A stretch of 33,099 nt of DNA from Chloroflexota bacterium (GTDB taxonomy: Bacteria > Chloroflexota > Chloroflexia > Chloroflexales > Roseiflexaceae): positions 1 through 33,099 of the forward strand of contig JAUQOW010000021.1 of the NCBI GenBank assembly GCA_030550675.1, given 5' to 3'. The notes under the pieces were generated by a model. The model made no database searches and was not told where the DNA came from. It saw nothing but the letters and a program-made list of their open reading frames with translations. The first letter of the stretch is position 1. Each line of letters opens with the position of its first letter. Below are positions 13,601 to 23,410 of this stretch, in pieces. The position numbers were made by a program, and so were the translations under genes.

Positions 13601-14422
13601 TCATCTTTGCTCCCCGGACCTCGTCGCCAGGCGCTGTCTCAACTCCTGTTGCACATAGTCACGAAACACCTCCAGGAATGCAGCAGGAAACGCCCCTGTA
13701 TACTCAGCATCGCAGTAGTGCATCAGCGCTTTCTGAGTCAGCGGACGCAGCGTAAGGGGCAGGCGCTCAAGCGCCCATTCGCCTCCTTCCTTCTTTGAGA
13801 GCACCTGGCGCGTCTGCAAGAATGCCAGCGTGCGGCAGGCGTTCAGAATGGCATAGACCGGATCAGCGTAGATGCGGTCCAGCGCCTCGGCGACATCGGC
13901 GACAATCGCGGCGATGTAGTCAGCCTCCGGCACAGCGGGAAATACTTGAGCGGCAGGCGGACCGTAGAGCGCAACGCCTCGCTGCCGAACGACCGTGATG
14001 TGCGCGGAGAGGTCGGGGTCGCGCTGCTCGCTGGCGTTCCAGGCGCGCCACCGTTCTCCTGCAAGGTCGCGCGTGTAAGCGTCGCGCCACATTTCGCTGT
14101 AGTGGAAATCGAACGGCGGCGGATGGCGCCACGGCGTCAGCATTGCCAGCGTTAGAAAACTCACCTCAATCGGCGCTGGCTGGCGCGATGCGCGCAACAG
14201 GTGCACGGCAACGTCCCGCCTTGTCGTCGCGGTCATTGGCGCGCGCGTGACGACGAGAAGATCGAGATCGCTTTGCGCCGGGTTGAAGCATCCCATCGCC
14301 AGGGAGCCGTGCAGGTACACGCCAATCAGGGCGTCGCCGAGTATCGCGCGCACATCTGCAACGTAACGCTCGACCTGCGCCTGGATCAGGGTATTGGTCG
14401 TGCGATCACGGATCGCTCTCAT
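13601..14422 (-). CDS. AadA-like aminoglycoside nucleotidyltransferase family protein
   Basis: Members transfer AMP from ATP to hydroxyls of streptomycin or spectinomycin. The 273-aa protein has the polymerase-beta-type motif GS(39-40)LAMGCFNPAQSDLD(51-54), whose two Asp bind metal, and Glu86 in PIEVSFL, the position of the catalytic base in AadA. The C-terminal helical domain (about 150-265) matches the DUF4111 part of AadA. Length fits AadA (about 260 aa). ATG 14422 has only a weak GAAGG-type site upstream. Chromosomal setting without integron features suggests an intrinsic homologue rather than a recently acquired resistance cassette. The actual substrate is not determined by these motifs. 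It ends convergent to the acylase gene, with 235 bp of unremarkable DNA between. Confidence 0.88.
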   Translation of the reverse strand: MRAIRDRTTNTLIQAQVERYVADVRAILGDALIGVYLHGSLAMGCFNPAQSDLDLLVVTRAPMTATTRRDVAVHLLRASRQPAPIEVSFLTLAMLTPWRHPPPFDFHYSEMWRDAYTRDLAGERWRAWNASEQRDPDLSAHITVVRQRGVALYGPPAAQVFPAVPEADYIAAIVADVAEALDRIYADPVYAILNACRTLAFLQTRQVLSKKEGGEWALERLPLTLRPLTQKALMHYCDAEYTGAFPAAFLEVFRDYVQQELRQRLATRSGEQR

Positions 14423-14501
14423 GCCATCGCCTTCGTTGTTCCCTCATCGCCGTCTGTTCACCTTTGGGCGACCATCACCGCCATCCGCGTCCCGCCTGCC
14501 C

Positions 14502-14711
14502 CCGTTGGGGCGTCCCGGTCTGTCCCTGTTGGGGCGTCCCGCCGGGGCGTCCCGACCTGGACCCGTTGGGGCGTCCCGCCGGGGCGTCCCAATCCGTACC
14601 CCCTGTCGGGCGTCCCGCCGGGGCGTCCCGACCTGGACCCGTTGGGGCGTCCCGCCGGGGCATCCCGAATTCTGTACCCCCTCGTTGGGGCGACCCGGCG
14701 GGTCGCCCCTA
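14502..14711. repeat. Tandem GC-rich array ending in a perfect palindrome
   Basis: About four copies of a 38-40 bp unit built on GTTGGGGCGTCCCGCCGGGG followed by CGTCCCGACCTGGACC, with small variations in the spacer. The right end is the palindrome GGGGCGACCC-GGC-GGGTCGCCCC (14687-14709), flanked by TT and TA. Confidence 0.85.
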
Positions 14712-14918
14712 CCACGGGTTGCCCTGTCATGCGGGGTCCTGCGCCCGTGCGCTGCCGTTGCGCTGGAATCGCCGCTTGCGCCCGCCCACGATGGGTGATT
14801 GTCACCTGCCCCCGATGGCGTGGTCACCTGCAGGGGGCGCTCCTGCCTCACAAGGGTAGACTTTTTGGCAAGCCTCGTGTTGAGTCGTCCGCTTCAGGCA
14901 TCAGGATGCCAAAACACT

Positions 14919-18335: not shown

Positions 18336-19673
18336 ATGGCAACGCGCAACTCACGGATCAGCGGGTTCTATCAGCTCAGCCCCGACGAACGCCTCGAAGT
18401 TGTGCGATCGTTCGACGGGCTGAACGATGAAGACCTGCGCCAGCTCCGCGGCGGCAATGGCGCCCTGACCGTTGAGCGCGCCGACAAGATGATCGAAAAC
18501 GTTATTGGCACTTTTAATCTGCCGCTTGGCATTGCAACCAACTTTCTGATCAATGGGCGCGATGTGCTCATTCCGATGGTCGTGGAAGAGCCATCGATCG
18601 TCGCGGGCGCCAGTTATGCAGCGAAGCTGGTGCGCGACGGTGGCGGGTTCCAGGCGAGTTCGACCCCGCCGCTCATGATTGGTCAGGTGCAACTGGTGCA
18701 CGTCGCCGATCCCCACCGCGCTCGCCACGACATTCTGGCGCGCCGCGACGACATTCTGGCGCTCGCCAATCGCCAGAGCAGCACTCTGGTGGCGCTTGGC
18801 GGCGGCGCCAAGGATGTCGAGGTGCGCTTCTTCGAGACCAGCCCAATGGGTCCGATGCTGGTCGTGCACCTGATCATCGACTGCCGCGACGCGATGGGCG
18901 CGAACGCTATCAACACAATGGCAGAGGCGGTCGCGCCGCTGCTCGAGGAGATCAGCGGCGGCAAGGCGTACCTGCGCATCCTCTCGAACCTGAGCGACCG
19001 GCGACTGGCGCGGGCGCGGGCGATTGTGCCGGCGAAGTCGCTGGCGCGCGACGGTCTGAGCGGCGAAGAGGTCGTTGAGGGCATTCTGTGGGCGTATGCC
19101 TTTGCCGTAGTGGACCCGTATCGTGCAACAACGCATAATAAGGGCATTCTGAATGGCATCGACCCGATCCTGATCGCCACCGGCAACGACTGGCGCGCCG
19201 TCGAGGCTGGCGCGCACGCCTATGCCGCGCGGAGCGGTCGGTACACGTCGCTGTCGCACTGGGAGCGCGACGCGCAGGGGAACCTGGTCGGCACGCTCGA
19301 AATGCCGCTTGCAGTCGGCGTTGTCGGCGGCGCCACGAAGGTGCACCCGGCGGCGCAGGCGGCGCTCAAGCTGCTGGGAGTCACCCACGCGCACGAACTG
19401 GCGGAAATCTGTGTCTGCGCCGGTCTGGCGTCGAACCTGGCAGCGATGCGCGCTCTGGCGACCGAGGGGATTCAGCGCGGGCATATGAGCCTGCACGCGC
19501 GTCAGATTGCTATGGCTGCCGGAGCGCAGGGCGCTGAGGTGGACATGATCGCGGCGCGGATGGTGCAGGAGCGGCAGATCAAACCGGCGCGCGCCGAGGC
19601 GCTGCTGGCGGAACTGCGCGCCCGCAACGCCAGCGCCGATCACGCCTTGACGGAAACAGCGCGCATTTCATAG
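18336..19673 (+). CDS. Hydroxymethylglutaryl-CoA reductase, class II
   Basis: HMG-CoA reductase interconverts HMG-CoA and mevalonate with NAD(P)H. The 445-aa length, without membrane segments, fits the bacterial class II form. Visible catalytic positions are the Glu in [12 protein letters not shown] (84/85), Lys269 in [12 protein letters not shown], Asp285 in ATGNDWRA and His383 in RGHMSLHAR; the dinucleotide site DCRDAMGAN is at 182-190. AGGAG lies at 18318-18322, rather far (13 nt) from ATG 18336. The synthase, a thiolase-like gene and a DUF35 gene follow on the same strand, so the enzyme is probably used for mevalonate synthesis, not degradation. Biosynthesis of isoprenoids through mevalonate is established for the related Chloroflexus. 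A 257-bp gap to the synthase may hold a second promoter. Confidence 0.95.
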
Positions 19674-19930: not shown

Positions 19931-20977
19931 ATGATGAAACCTGAACGACCCGTGGGCATTGTCGGATACGGCGCCTATATTCCGCGCTTCCGCATCGCAG
20001 CCCGCGAGATTGCCCGCATCTGGGACGGCGCTGGAGGGACGCCGGTCGACTCAAAAAGCGTGCCCGGTCCCGATGAAGATACGATCACGATGTCAATCGA
20101 AGCGGCGCGCAATGCCCTGGCGCGAGCGCGCATCGCACCCGACCGCCTCTCGGCGGTGTGGGTCGGCAGCGAGAGTCCGCCGTACTCGGTCAAACCATCC
20201 GGCACGCTGGTCGCTGAGGCGCTCGGCGCCACGCCATGGGTCAGCGCCGCCGACTGGGAGTTCGCCTGTAAAGCTGGTTCTGAGGCGTTGACCGCTGCGA
20301 TGGGCATGGTCGGCAGCGGCATGGCGCAGTACGTGCTGGCAATCGGCGCCGATACCGCGCAGGGGCGCCCTGGCGATGCGCTGGAATACACTGCGGCGGC
20401 TGGCGCTGCGGCGCTGCTGGTCGGTCCGGCAGCGGAAGCAGTGGCGGTTATCGAGGGAACGACCTCGTATGTGACCGACACGCCTGACTTCTTCCGTCGC
20501 GCTGATACGGCGTACCCGGTGCATGGGCATCGCTTCACCGGTGAGCCAGCGTATTTCAACACGTTGCGCAGCGCCGCCGAGCGGCTGCTGCGCGACCTGG
20601 GCGCGAAGCCGTCCGATTTCACTTATGCCGTGTTCCATCAACCGAACACGCGCTTCCCGCAGACTGTCGCCCGTCAACTCGGGTTCACGCCGCAGCAGAT
20701 CGCAACAGGGCTGTTGTCGCCGAAGATCGGCAATGCCTACTCAGCAGCCGCGCTCCTCGGATTGTGCGCGATTCTCGATGTGGCGAAGCCGGGCGACACG
20801 ATTTTTGTGGCGACCTACGGTTCTGGCGCGGGGTCCGACGCTTATGCGCTGCGCGTGACCGAAGCGCTGCCTGAGCGCCGTGGGCGCGCGCCGCTGACGG
20901 CGGCGTACCTGGCGCGTGAAACGTTTGTGGATTATGCCGTGTACGCCAAGCGGCGCGGCAAACTGGTGATGGAGTAA
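19931..20977 (+). CDS. Hydroxymethylglutaryl-CoA synthase, archaeal type
   Basis: This enzyme condenses acetyl-CoA with acetoacetyl-CoA to HMG-CoA. The 348-aa protein belongs to the short archaeal branch: GIVGYGAYIPRFRI at the N-terminus, Glu81 in GSESPPYSVKP, nucleophile Cys113 in WEFACKAG and His236 in FHQPNTRFP are all present. ATG 19931 is chosen because AGGAG at 19918-19922 lies 8 nt upstream; an open extension further left lacks support. It lies 4 bp before the thiolase-like gene, whose ribosome-binding site overlaps its 3' end, so the two are coupled. In archaea this synthase forms a channelling complex with acetoacetyl-CoA thiolase and a DUF35 protein; here the same three genes are in the same order. 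Confidence 0.94.
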   Translation: MMKPERPVGIVGYGAYIPRFRIAAREIARIWDGAGGTPVDSKSVPGPDEDTITMSIEAARNALARARIAPDRLSAVWVGSESPPYSVKPSGTLVAEALGATPWVSAADWEFACKAGSEALTAAMGMVGSGMAQYVLAIGADTAQGRPGDALEYTAAAGAAALLVGPAAEAVAVIEGTTSYVTDTPDFFRRADTAYPVHGHRFTGEPAYFNTLRSAAERLLRDLGAKPSDFTYAVFHQPNTRFPQTVARQLGFTPQQIATGLLSPKIGNAYSAAALLGLCAILDVAKPGDTIFVATYGSGAGSDAYALRVTEALPERRGRAPLTAAYLARETFVDYAVYAKRRGKLVME

Positions 20978-20981
20978 CGCC

Positions 20982-22136
20982 ATGCGACATGTCTATATCA
21001 TTGGAACCGGAGCGACAGCGGTTGGCGAGCACTGGGATCGCAGCGCTGAGTCGCTCGCAATTGAGGCGCTGAATAGCGCTCTGGGGACGATTCCCGTATC
21101 GCGGCTTGGTGCGCTCTACGTCGCCAGCGCACTGAGCGGAACGTTGCACGCGCAGAGTCAGATCGGCGCGCTGATCGCCACGGCTGCTGGCATCCCTGGC
21201 GTTGAAGCCGTCACCATCGAGGCAGGCGGAGCGTCCGGCGGCGTGGCGTTGCGCCAGGCGTGCATGGCGGTTGCGTCGGGCGCCGTTGATCTGGCAGCGG
21301 TTGTTGGCGTCGAAAAAGTGACCGATGTGCTCGACGCTCGCCGCGAAGCGGCGCTGGCGCTGGCGACCGACGCCGACTGGGAGGCGATCCACGGCGTCAC
21401 GCTGACGGCGCTGTGGGCGCTGCTCATGCGCCGGTATATGCATGAGTATGGCTACACCGCCGATGATTTTGCTCCATTCCCGATCAATGCCCACGCGAAT
21501 GCGGTCGCCAATCCGCGGGCGATGTACCGTTTCGCCATCACCGCCGACAAGGTGCGCAGCGCGCCGATGGTCTCCGAACCGCTCGGTCTGCTCGATTGCT
21601 CGACGGCTGCCGACGGCGCCGCTGCCGTGATTATCGCCAGCGAAGGGCTGGCGCGTGAACTCTGTGCGAACCCGGTGCGCATCGCCGGTTCTGCGGTTGC
21701 CACTGACACGCTGGCGCTGCACAGCCGTTCCAATCCGCTGTGGCTGACGGCGGCGGCGCAGACAACCGCAGCGGCGCTGCGGTCGGCGCATCTGACGCAC
21801 AGCGACGTGCAGGTGTTTGACGTGACTGACCCGCACGGCATCGCGGCGGCGCTGGCGCTCGAGTCGAGCGGGTTTGCCGAACGCGGAACCGCCGTGGCGT
21901 TGGCGCGCGAAGGCGCCATTACTCCGAAAGGTCGATTGCCGCTGGCGACCGGCGGCGGGTGCAAGGCGCGCGGCGATACGGTTGGCGCCAATGGCGTCTA
22001 TCAGATCGTCGAACTGGTTGCGCAATTGCGCGGGCAGGCTGGCGCAGCGCAGGTGGAAGGCGCACGGGTGGCGCTGGCGCAGTGCATGGGCGGCATTGGA
22101 GCGACGGTGGCGACGCACATTCTGACACTCGATTGA
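20982..22136 (+). CDS. Thiolase-fold protein lacking the catalytic residues
   Basis: The 384-aa protein matches archaeal-type acetyl-CoA acetyltransferases over its full length (GVEKVTDVLD, RRYMHEYGYT, DTLALHSR). The active site is replaced. The nucleophile motif EAACASGG reads EAGGASGG, with Gly83 (codon GGA) for Cys. The VHDxF His reads VTDPHG. The GHPxGATG motif reads GDTVGANG, with Asp for His. The frame is uninterrupted and codon use is like its neighbours, so it is maintained rather than decaying. ATG 20982 follows GGAG at 20971-20974. By position it would be the acetoacetyl-CoA-forming partner of the synthase, but as written it cannot do normal thiolase chemistry. A scaffold or CoA-binding role is my inference; an active thiolase should then exist elsewhere. 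Confidence 0.88.
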   Translation: MRHVYIIGTGATAVGEHWDRSAESLAIEALNSALGTIPVSRLGALYVASALSGTLHAQSQIGALIATAAGIPGVEAVTIEAGGASGGVALRQACMAVASGAVDLAAVVGVEKVTDVLDARREAALALATDADWEAIHGVTLTALWALLMRRYMHEYGYTADDFAPFPINAHANAVANPRAMYRFAITADKVRSAPMVSEPLGLLDCSTAADGAAAVIIASEGLARELCANPVRIAGSAVATDTLALHSRSNPLWLTAAAQTTAAALRSAHLTHSDVQVFDVTDPHGIAAALALESSGFAERGTAVALAREGAITPKGRLPLATGGGCKARGDTVGANGVYQIVELVAQLRGQAGAAQVEGARVALAQCMGGIGATVATHILTLD

Positions 22137-22151
22137 GGTGGAGGTTCAACC

Positions 22152-22559
22152 ATGGATCTGGCAAAACACTGGCGTCTGCGCCATGCCCGCTATCGTCTCG
22201 AAGGGCAGCGCAACCGGCTCACCGGCGAGGTGCGCTTCCCGCCAGCGCCGCCGCGTCCAGGCGAGGCGGAAGATGTGTGGGAGCCGTATGTGCTGAGCGG
22301 GCGGGGGCGCGTCTACTCATTCAGCGTTGTGCGGCAGCCGCCGGAGGGGTTCGAGGATCAGCCGCCCTACCTGGTGGCGCTCGTGCGCCTGGATGAAGGA
22401 CCAATGGTGACTGCCCAGCTCACCGACTGCGATCTCGAGCAGGCAGCGATTGATATGCCGGTTGAGATGGTCACCCGCCGCCTGCGCGATCTGGGACCGA
22501 CAGGGTTGATCGTGTACGGCTACAAATTCCGCCCCATTGTTCAGAGCGGCAATCACTGA
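22152..22559 (+). CDS. DUF35 OB-fold protein without its zinc ribbon
   Basis: DUF35 proteins bridge archaeal thiolase and HMG-CoA synthase. The 135-aa product has the N-terminal helix (HWRLRHARYRLEG), then the former zinc-ribbon region and an OB-fold (about 45-130: GRGRVYSFSVV, PYLVALVRLDEGPMVTAQL). In the usual form the ribbon reads CxxCG...FFPP...CPxC. Here it reads NRLTGEVRFPPAPPRPGE, with all four Cys gone but the FPP core kept. ATG 22152 has GGAGG at 22140-22144. It lies 15 bp after the thiolase-like gene and 11 bp before phnX. The loss of zinc ligands parallels the loss of catalytic residues in the thiolase-like neighbour. Confidence 0.85.
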   Translation: MDLAKHWRLRHARYRLEGQRNRLTGEVRFPPAPPRPGEAEDVWEPYVLSGRGRVYSFSVVRQPPEGFEDQPPYLVALVRLDEGPMVTAQLTDCDLEQAAIDMPVEMVTRRLRDLGPTGLIVYGYKFRPIVQSGNH

Positions 22560-22570
22560 GAGGGGCAACC

Positions 22571-23410
22571 GTGCAACCGACGGCGCAACGCACCTATCGC
22601 GGTCCTGTGCGGGGTGTTATCCTCGACTGGGCAGGAACAGCGGTCGATTATGGCGCGTTTGCGCCGGTTGCTGTCTTCATGCGTCTGTTCGAGCAGCGCG
22701 GCGTGCCGATCACGGCGGAGGACGCTCGTGCGGGCATGGGGTTGATGAAAAAAGACCACCTCCGCGCGATCCTCGAGCGTCCAACGGTTGCCGCCGCCTG
22801 GCGATCCGTCCGCGGCGCGCCGCCTGATGAGCGCGACATCAATGAACTGTTCGATCAGTTCGTCCCGCTGCAACTGTCCGTTGTGCGGGAATACGCCACT
22901 CCCATCCCCGGTCTGATCGACGCAGTGACTGAACTGCGCGCACGCGGGATCAGAATTGGTTCAACGACAGGATATCTGCGCGCGATGATGGATATGCTCG
23001 CGCCAGCTGCGGCGGCGCACGGCTATCGCCCCGATAGCATCATCTGCCCCGATGACGTTCCCGCCGGACGACCCGCGCCCTGGATGTGCTTTCAGAACGC
23101 CATGCGACTGGGGATATATCCGATGGCGGCGCTGGTCAAAGTTGGCGACACGCTGGTAGACATTGAGGAAGGTTTGAACGCTGGCATGTGGACGGTCGGC
23201 GTGACCCTCACCGGAAGTCTGCTGGGCTTGAACGAAGCGGGCGTCAATGCGCTCATGCCGTCGGAGCGAGCGGAGGCGCACACGCGCATTGGCGAACAAC
23301 TCTATGCCGCCGGAGCGCACCTGGTCATCGAAGGCGTCTGGGATCTGCCGCGCGCCATCGACGACATCGAAGCGCGGATACAGCGCGGAGAAACACCGAC
23401 CCCGACGTGA
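22571..23410 (+). CDS. phnX: Phosphonoacetaldehyde hydrolase (phosphonatase)
   Basis: PhnX splits the C-P bond of phosphonoacetaldehyde into acetaldehyde and phosphate, using a Schiff-base Lys and a HAD-type Asp. The 279-aa protein shows VILDWAGTAVDYG (nucleophile Asp19), MGLMKKDH (Schiff-base Lys60), GSTTGY and DDVPAGRPAPWM, the last diagnostic for PhnX. It continues KVGDTLVDIEEG and AGMWTVGV. Start is GTG 22571 after GAGGGG. Only 11 bp separate it from the DUF35 gene, so it is co-transcribed with the mevalonate cluster, which makes no obvious metabolic sense. The usual partner PhnW (2-aminoethylphosphonate transaminase) is not in the window. A regulator and an ABC ATPase follow, which may make a phosphonate-use locus. 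Confidence 0.93.
   Translation: MQPTAQRTYRGPVRGVILDWAGTAVDYGAFAPVAVFMRLFEQRGVPITAEDARAGMGLMKKDHLRAILERPTVAAAWRSVRGAPPDERDINELFDQFVPLQLSVVREYATPIPGLIDAVTELRARGIRIGSTTGYLRAMMDMLAPAAAAHGYRPDSIICPDDVPAGRPAPWMCFQNAMRLGIYPMAALVKVGDTLVDIEEGLNAGMWTVGVTLTGSLLGLNEAGVNALMPSERAEAHTRIGEQLYAAGAHLVIEGVWDLPRAIDDIEARIQRGETPTPT

Follow-up and report, generated by a model that had tools for sequence, protein, structure and literature searches.

We report that an archaeal-type HMG-CoA synthase (HMGS) in Chloroflexota is encoded beside a thiolase-fold protein, here called the pseudo-thiolase, in which every catalytic position of an SCP2-type thiolase is replaced. A thiolase in this place would normally supply the first committed step of isoprenoid synthesis. 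The gene lies in the window, meaning the whole 33,099-nucleotide stretch of DNA that was analyzed (Table 1), and is under purifying selection. We propose that its product is probably a non-catalytic partner of HMGS, present mostly in genomes that have a spare thiolase.

Table 1. Features of the window, with pseudo-thiolase residues listed under their gene
Feature	Position	Strand	Basis
Probable intergenic repeat, rich in Gly/Pro/Arg, with several open frames on both strands	14394..14860
HMG-CoA reductase (HMGR), next pathway step	18336..19673	+	TIGR00532, 448 bits (cut-off 259.95); PF00368
Archaeal-type HMGS	19931..20977	+	TIGR00748, 482 bits, and NF003274, 533 bits, both above cut-off
Pseudo-thiolase, thiolase-fold protein without catalytic residues	20982..22136	+	Profile matches, alignments, predicted fold
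Gly83 in place of the CxS-motif nucleophile Cys	21228..21230	+	Alignment
Thr282-Asp283-Pro284-His285 replacing H-D-(C/A)-F	21825..21836	+	Alignment
Asp332 at the GHP histidine	21975..21977	+	Alignment
DUF35 protein	22152..22559	+	OB fold PF01796, 84 bits
Phosphonoacetaldehyde hydrolase (PhnX), directly 3' of the mevalonate cluster	22571..23410		TIGR01422

The original prediction described an uninterrupted thiolase-fold gene in a mevalonate cluster, and both points hold: the open reading frame runs from an ATG through 384 aa, and the genes follow each other in the order HMGR, HMGS, pseudo-thiolase, and DUF35, with few bases separating the last three. Profile searches detected the domains Thiolase_N (PF00108; 53.9 bits) and Thiolase_C_1 (PF22691; 126 bits), and the match to NF004720 reached 382 bits, below the cut-off of 420 for that model. 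Fold and family-level similarity to SCP2/archaeal-type acetoacetyl-CoA thiolases is thus present. The best solved structures were 7yvy, from Pyrococcus furiosus, and 6esq/6et9, from the thiolase/HMGS complex of Methanothermococcus thermolithotrophicus. The predicted fold (pLDDT, 90.9; pTM, 0.93) superimposed on the thiolase of the latter complex (6esq_A) with a TM score of 0.96 and 36% identity in the fold alignment. The P. furiosus thiolase PFC_04095 (7YVY) is the closest solved sequence, at 299 bits and 41% identity in the fold alignment. The HMGS of the window retains Glu81, Cys113, and His236. Its DUF35 protein retains the OB fold and has no CxxC...CxxC pair, so that the zinc ribbon is gone. 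PhnX also adjoins the related loci L002 and L004 and was not found next to more distant ones.

We then compared the active site with those of the solved thiolases (7yvy, 6esq/6et9) by alignment. Their motif EAACASGG aligns with EAGGASGG in the window, VHDAF/VHDCF aligns with VTDPHG, and GHPVGATG/GHALGATG aligns with GDTVGANG. The three replacements that had been read from the sequence earlier, namely, Cys to Gly83, loss of the VHDxF histidine (now Thr282), and GHP histidine to Asp332, were therefore recovered. In SCP2-type thiolases a second catalytic Cys sits in the HDCF loop (PMC7682436, PMC12329534). In the window protein this residue is Pro284, a fourth loss that the earlier reading had overlooked. 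Compared with the M. thermolithotrophicus enzyme, the pseudo-thiolase thus lacks the Cys85-type nucleophile, the His and Cys of the HDC motif, and the GHP histidine; 7YVY has the Cys, HDAF, and GHP, and the window protein has none of them. With the nucleophile, the HD-loop His and Cys, and the GHP histidine gone, the protein would not be expected to catalyze the thiolase reaction in the known way, and since the defining residues are absent, it should not be named one. It is very improbable that the protein still works as a weak thiolase through other residues. The fold is retained, and Cys368 lies near the position of the classical CxG motif in the window protein and in about two-thirds of the Chloroflexales sequences, but other members of the clade carry Ser, Thr, or Val at position 368, and active homologues carry Asn. 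Moreover, neither the nucleophile nor the oxyanion His is left, and Sal, which has Gly at the nucleophile position, is incapable of thiolysis (PMC12329534).

We looked into how widely the catalytic residues are missing. In an initial genome scan, which yielded 24 loci, the close relatives (L002 to L008) all lacked the three catalytic residues, and homologues not linked to HMGS (L012, L013, L014, and L017) retained them. We then searched 400 Chloroflexota genomes for HMGS and found 98 above the cut-off, counting that of the window. Among the 98 HMGS loci examined, one of which is a fragment below the cut-off, 96 had a thiolase-fold gene on the same strand, mostly less than 0.5 kb and at most 2.2 kb from HMGS; of the two without one, one is truncated by a contig end. 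The nucleophile position in the 97 HMGS-linked Chloroflexota thiolases (window included) is occupied by Gly in 66, Cys in 16, Asp in 8, Glu in 5, Gln in 1, and Thr in 1, meaning that Cys is absent from 81. Every linked thiolase that has the Cys also keeps both His, and the Glu/Cys/His triad of HMGS is present in every complete sequence from these loci. In Chloroflexales, taken as the families of the window's own order and including Roseiflexus and Chloroflexus among the relatives, the Cys is absent from all 41 orthologues and all three residues are absent from 40 of them. The finding of Cys and His in sister species would have pointed to a local event in the window, and the opposite result was obtained. 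Parallel to the change in the thiolase, the DUF35 zinc ribbon has disappeared from almost all Chloroflexales and from family f70 (loci of families f1 to f4 and f70). At 25 of the 98 HMGS loci (f11 g31 and g63; f44 g126 and g178), no DUF35 gene was found within the examined stretch; some of these stretches end at contig ends, and elsewhere the gene may be distant or lost.

A decaying gene or an assembly error has a negligible probability as an explanation. The genome of the window is a 446-contig assembly, but the same residues recur throughout the order and in four further genomes of its genus, one of which, assigned to the genus Roseiflexus, is a single contig and has an orthologue that likewise lacks the Cys. 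Against decay, pairwise dN/dS values between the pseudo-thiolase gene and those of five relatives were 0.055 to 0.117, compared with 0.024 to 0.050 for HMGS, 0.039 to 0.059 for HMGR, and 0.026 to 0.109 for DUF35. On the basis of the orthologues and these ratios, we rejected a local mutation or a sequencing error.

The retention of a thiolase-dead protein beside an intact synthase can be considered in the light of the archaeal complex, the known case of acetoacetyl-CoA channeling via a shared CoA site. In published descriptions, thiolase and HMGS are held together by DUF35 and have a CoA site in common (PMC12329534, PMC6996347), and the CoA in 6ESQ touches residues of all three proteins (PMC6392133). 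The window resembles the M. thermolithotrophicus complex (6ESQ/6ET9) in having the three homologous genes adjacent and the Glu and Cys of HMGS intact; it differs in the thiolase residues described above and, in nearly all Chloroflexales, in a DUF35 protein without the zinc ribbon. With CoA at an interface of three proteins, removal of the thiolase would, by analogy, damage the CoA/acetoacetyl-CoA site of HMGS. We therefore favor, as the probable explanation, a thiolase-dead subunit kept as a scaffold and as a wall of the CoA site in an HMGS complex. The pseudo-thiolase would descend from the thiolase subunit of an archaeal-type thiolase/HMGS/DUF35 complex, and its gene would be retained because active HMGS needs it as a structural partner. 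Loss of the Cys may have become tolerable once another thiolase was present, so that channeling within the complex would have been lost while the architecture persisted. Acetoacetyl-CoA would then be made by ordinary cellular thiolases and presumably be drawn by HMGS from the bulk pool. If so, the purpose of the complex becomes directly testable, as channeling versus building the CoA site of HMGS.

A complex with one dead condensing subunit has a precedent in PhlACB (5M3K), which also combines HMGS-like, thiolase-like, and DUF35 subunits. In its HMGS-like PhlA the Cys and Glu are missing, and this subunit is considered necessary solely for assembly (PMC6392133). There, however, the thiolase-like PhlC is active, the reverse of the situation in the window, and we rejected membership in PhlACB since the opposite subunit is dead. 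In the literature searched, from which subscription journals were mostly missing, we found no description of a dead thiolase beside an active HMGS. It is also quite unlikely that the protein is a regulatory subunit, that is, a dead thiolase that binds acetyl-CoA or acetoacetyl-CoA and tunes HMGS allosterically. The conserved fold, the operon with an active synthase, and the fixed pocket residues would all suit such a role, but the sequence gives no separation between it and a scaffold.

The newly fixed pocket residues of Chloroflexales speak against a pure scaffold. Cys-keeping homologues share 112 conserved sites, 66 of which are retained in Chloroflexales, and Asp283 is found in active homologues and Chloroflexales alike. 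Other positions have switched and are newly fixed in Chloroflexales (C83G, F285H in 41/41, H332D in 40/41, and M50A), and Trp145 (41/41) and Leu117 are fixed there as well. His285, Asp332, and Trp145 are absent from active homologues and are not obviously needed in a scaffold. Since residues have switched to new fixed states, the pocket was remodeled and then held. The original prediction saw a structural or CoA-binding partner of a still active synthase, with acetoacetyl-CoA coming from another thiolase. Its core agrees with the orthologues, the residues of HMGS, and the second thiolase described below, but the phenomenon is wider, reaching across the phylum and into archaea, and the old active site has been replaced, not simply eroded. 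There is a modest chance that the rebuilt pocket, in which Gly83, Asp283, His285, Asp332, Trp145, and Ala50 are fixed or nearly fixed in Chloroflexales, carries out a different CoA-thioester step or gates the entry of acetoacetyl-CoA to HMGS; if true, this would define an HMG-CoA synthase complex of a new functional class.

The same residues bear on the idea of a neofunctionalized enzyme, in which the Chloroflexales site would have been rebuilt around Asp283, His285, and Asp332 for another CoA-thioester reaction, for example, an aldol/retro-aldol reaction or a decarboxylation, as in Ltp2/Sal. His285, Asp332, and Trp145, fixed as they are, would fit such a history. Ltp2-ChsH2(DUF35) and Sal-Shy(DUF35) (6OK1, 9MYR; PMC12329534) likewise pair a Cys-less thiolase fold with DUF35, and Sal has Gly at the nucleophile position (PMC12329534). 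However, these enzymes carry YDHF/YDCY motifs and are accompanied by steroid hydratases, whereas the window has TDPH and HMGS. Their Tyr (position 282) and His/Cys (position 284) are unmatched by Thr/Ser282 and Pro/Gln284, and with Thr282 and Pro284 in place of the catalytic Tyr and His/Cys, we rejected membership of the window protein in the Ltp2/Sal aldolases. The genes beside it encode HMGS, HMGR, DUF35, and PhnX, with no steroid hydratase partner among them. In addition, other Cys-less lineages (f11, f44, and the Archaeoglobales type) carry different replacements, which argues against a common new chemistry. We thus consider neofunctionalization unlikely.

If the linked thiolase is dead, loss of the Cys is expected only in genomes with another thiolase. 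The pathway itself appears to be needed, since DXR was not found in the genome of the window or in ten other HMGS genomes (the control was positive in nine known genomes); mevalonate kinase is present. An alternative mevalonate pathway has been demonstrated in Roseiflexus castenholzii (PMC3857490). As had been anticipated, the genome of the window encodes further thiolases, among them TIGR01930 members with the full set of Cys/NEAF/GHP/CxG-type motifs. The thiolases L026, L027, and L028 have the Cys, NEAF, GHP, and CxGGG, and L029 has the Cys, NEAF, and GHP. Among the 80 Chloroflexota genomes compared, 64/65 without the Cys but 9/15 with it have a canonical thiolase (TIGR01930; Fisher P = 1e-4, relatedness ignored), and in the six Cys-keepers without a canonical thiolase, the linked gene is the sole PF02803 match. 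Among archaea, a further thiolase was found in 13/13 genomes with Asp at the nucleophile position versus 9/51 Cys-keepers (P = 4e-8, relatedness ignored). The single exception, G355, is a 92% complete metagenome-assembled genome that is Cys-less and in which no canonical thiolase was found; the thiolase region of a sister species had no match in it in a search made without a positive control. A test on phylogenetically independent pairs (Cys versus absence of a canonical thiolase) had too few pairs for significance. With few independent losses, the archaeal ones amounting to about one clade, the association suggests, and does not prove, that loss of the Cys goes with a spare thiolase in two lineages.

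The archaeal survey covered the phylum of the archaeal match L023, in which 110 of 148 genomes have HMGS. Most of the 70 linked thiolases that were read retain the nucleophile, but in 12 of them Asp stands in its place and the Cys of the HD loop is replaced too; together with L023's own genome, these make up the 13 Asp genomes (L193, L200, L210 to L213, L226, L227, L229 to L231, L233, and L023), and we call the clade of L023 Archaeoglobales-type. These proteins have Ser or Val at the HD-loop Cys and retain both His. The state of the Cys changes six times on the HMGS tree and three times on a thiolase tree built without the catalytic columns; both trees come from quick searches and have long branches, and three to six changes is the range that they can support. 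On the thiolase tree, most Cys-less Chloroflexota form one old clade, with f27 g221 and the archaeal Asp clade separate. The Cys has thus been lost more than once, including an independent loss, to Asp, in the Archaeoglobales-type clade. Repeatedly, then, a lineage would have kept the architecture although its channeling enzyme was dead. In Chloroflexales and Archaeoglobales-type archaea, thiolase annotations at the HMGS locus are probably wrong, and the acetoacetyl-CoA used for isoprenoids is probably of other origin.

Some further replacements were noted at the nucleophile position. The combination of Asp and two retained His is seen in Chloroflexota f44 g126 as well (L078, L081, and L089). 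The linked thiolase of L073 (f44 g93) has Gln; in ketosynthases, replacement of the Cys by Gln yields malonyl decarboxylases (KSQ). Among solved structures, the "thiolase-like" protein ST0096 of Sulfolobus tokodaii (PDB 4yzo) lacks the Cys (NTSGSGG) and retains the HD and GHP histidines.
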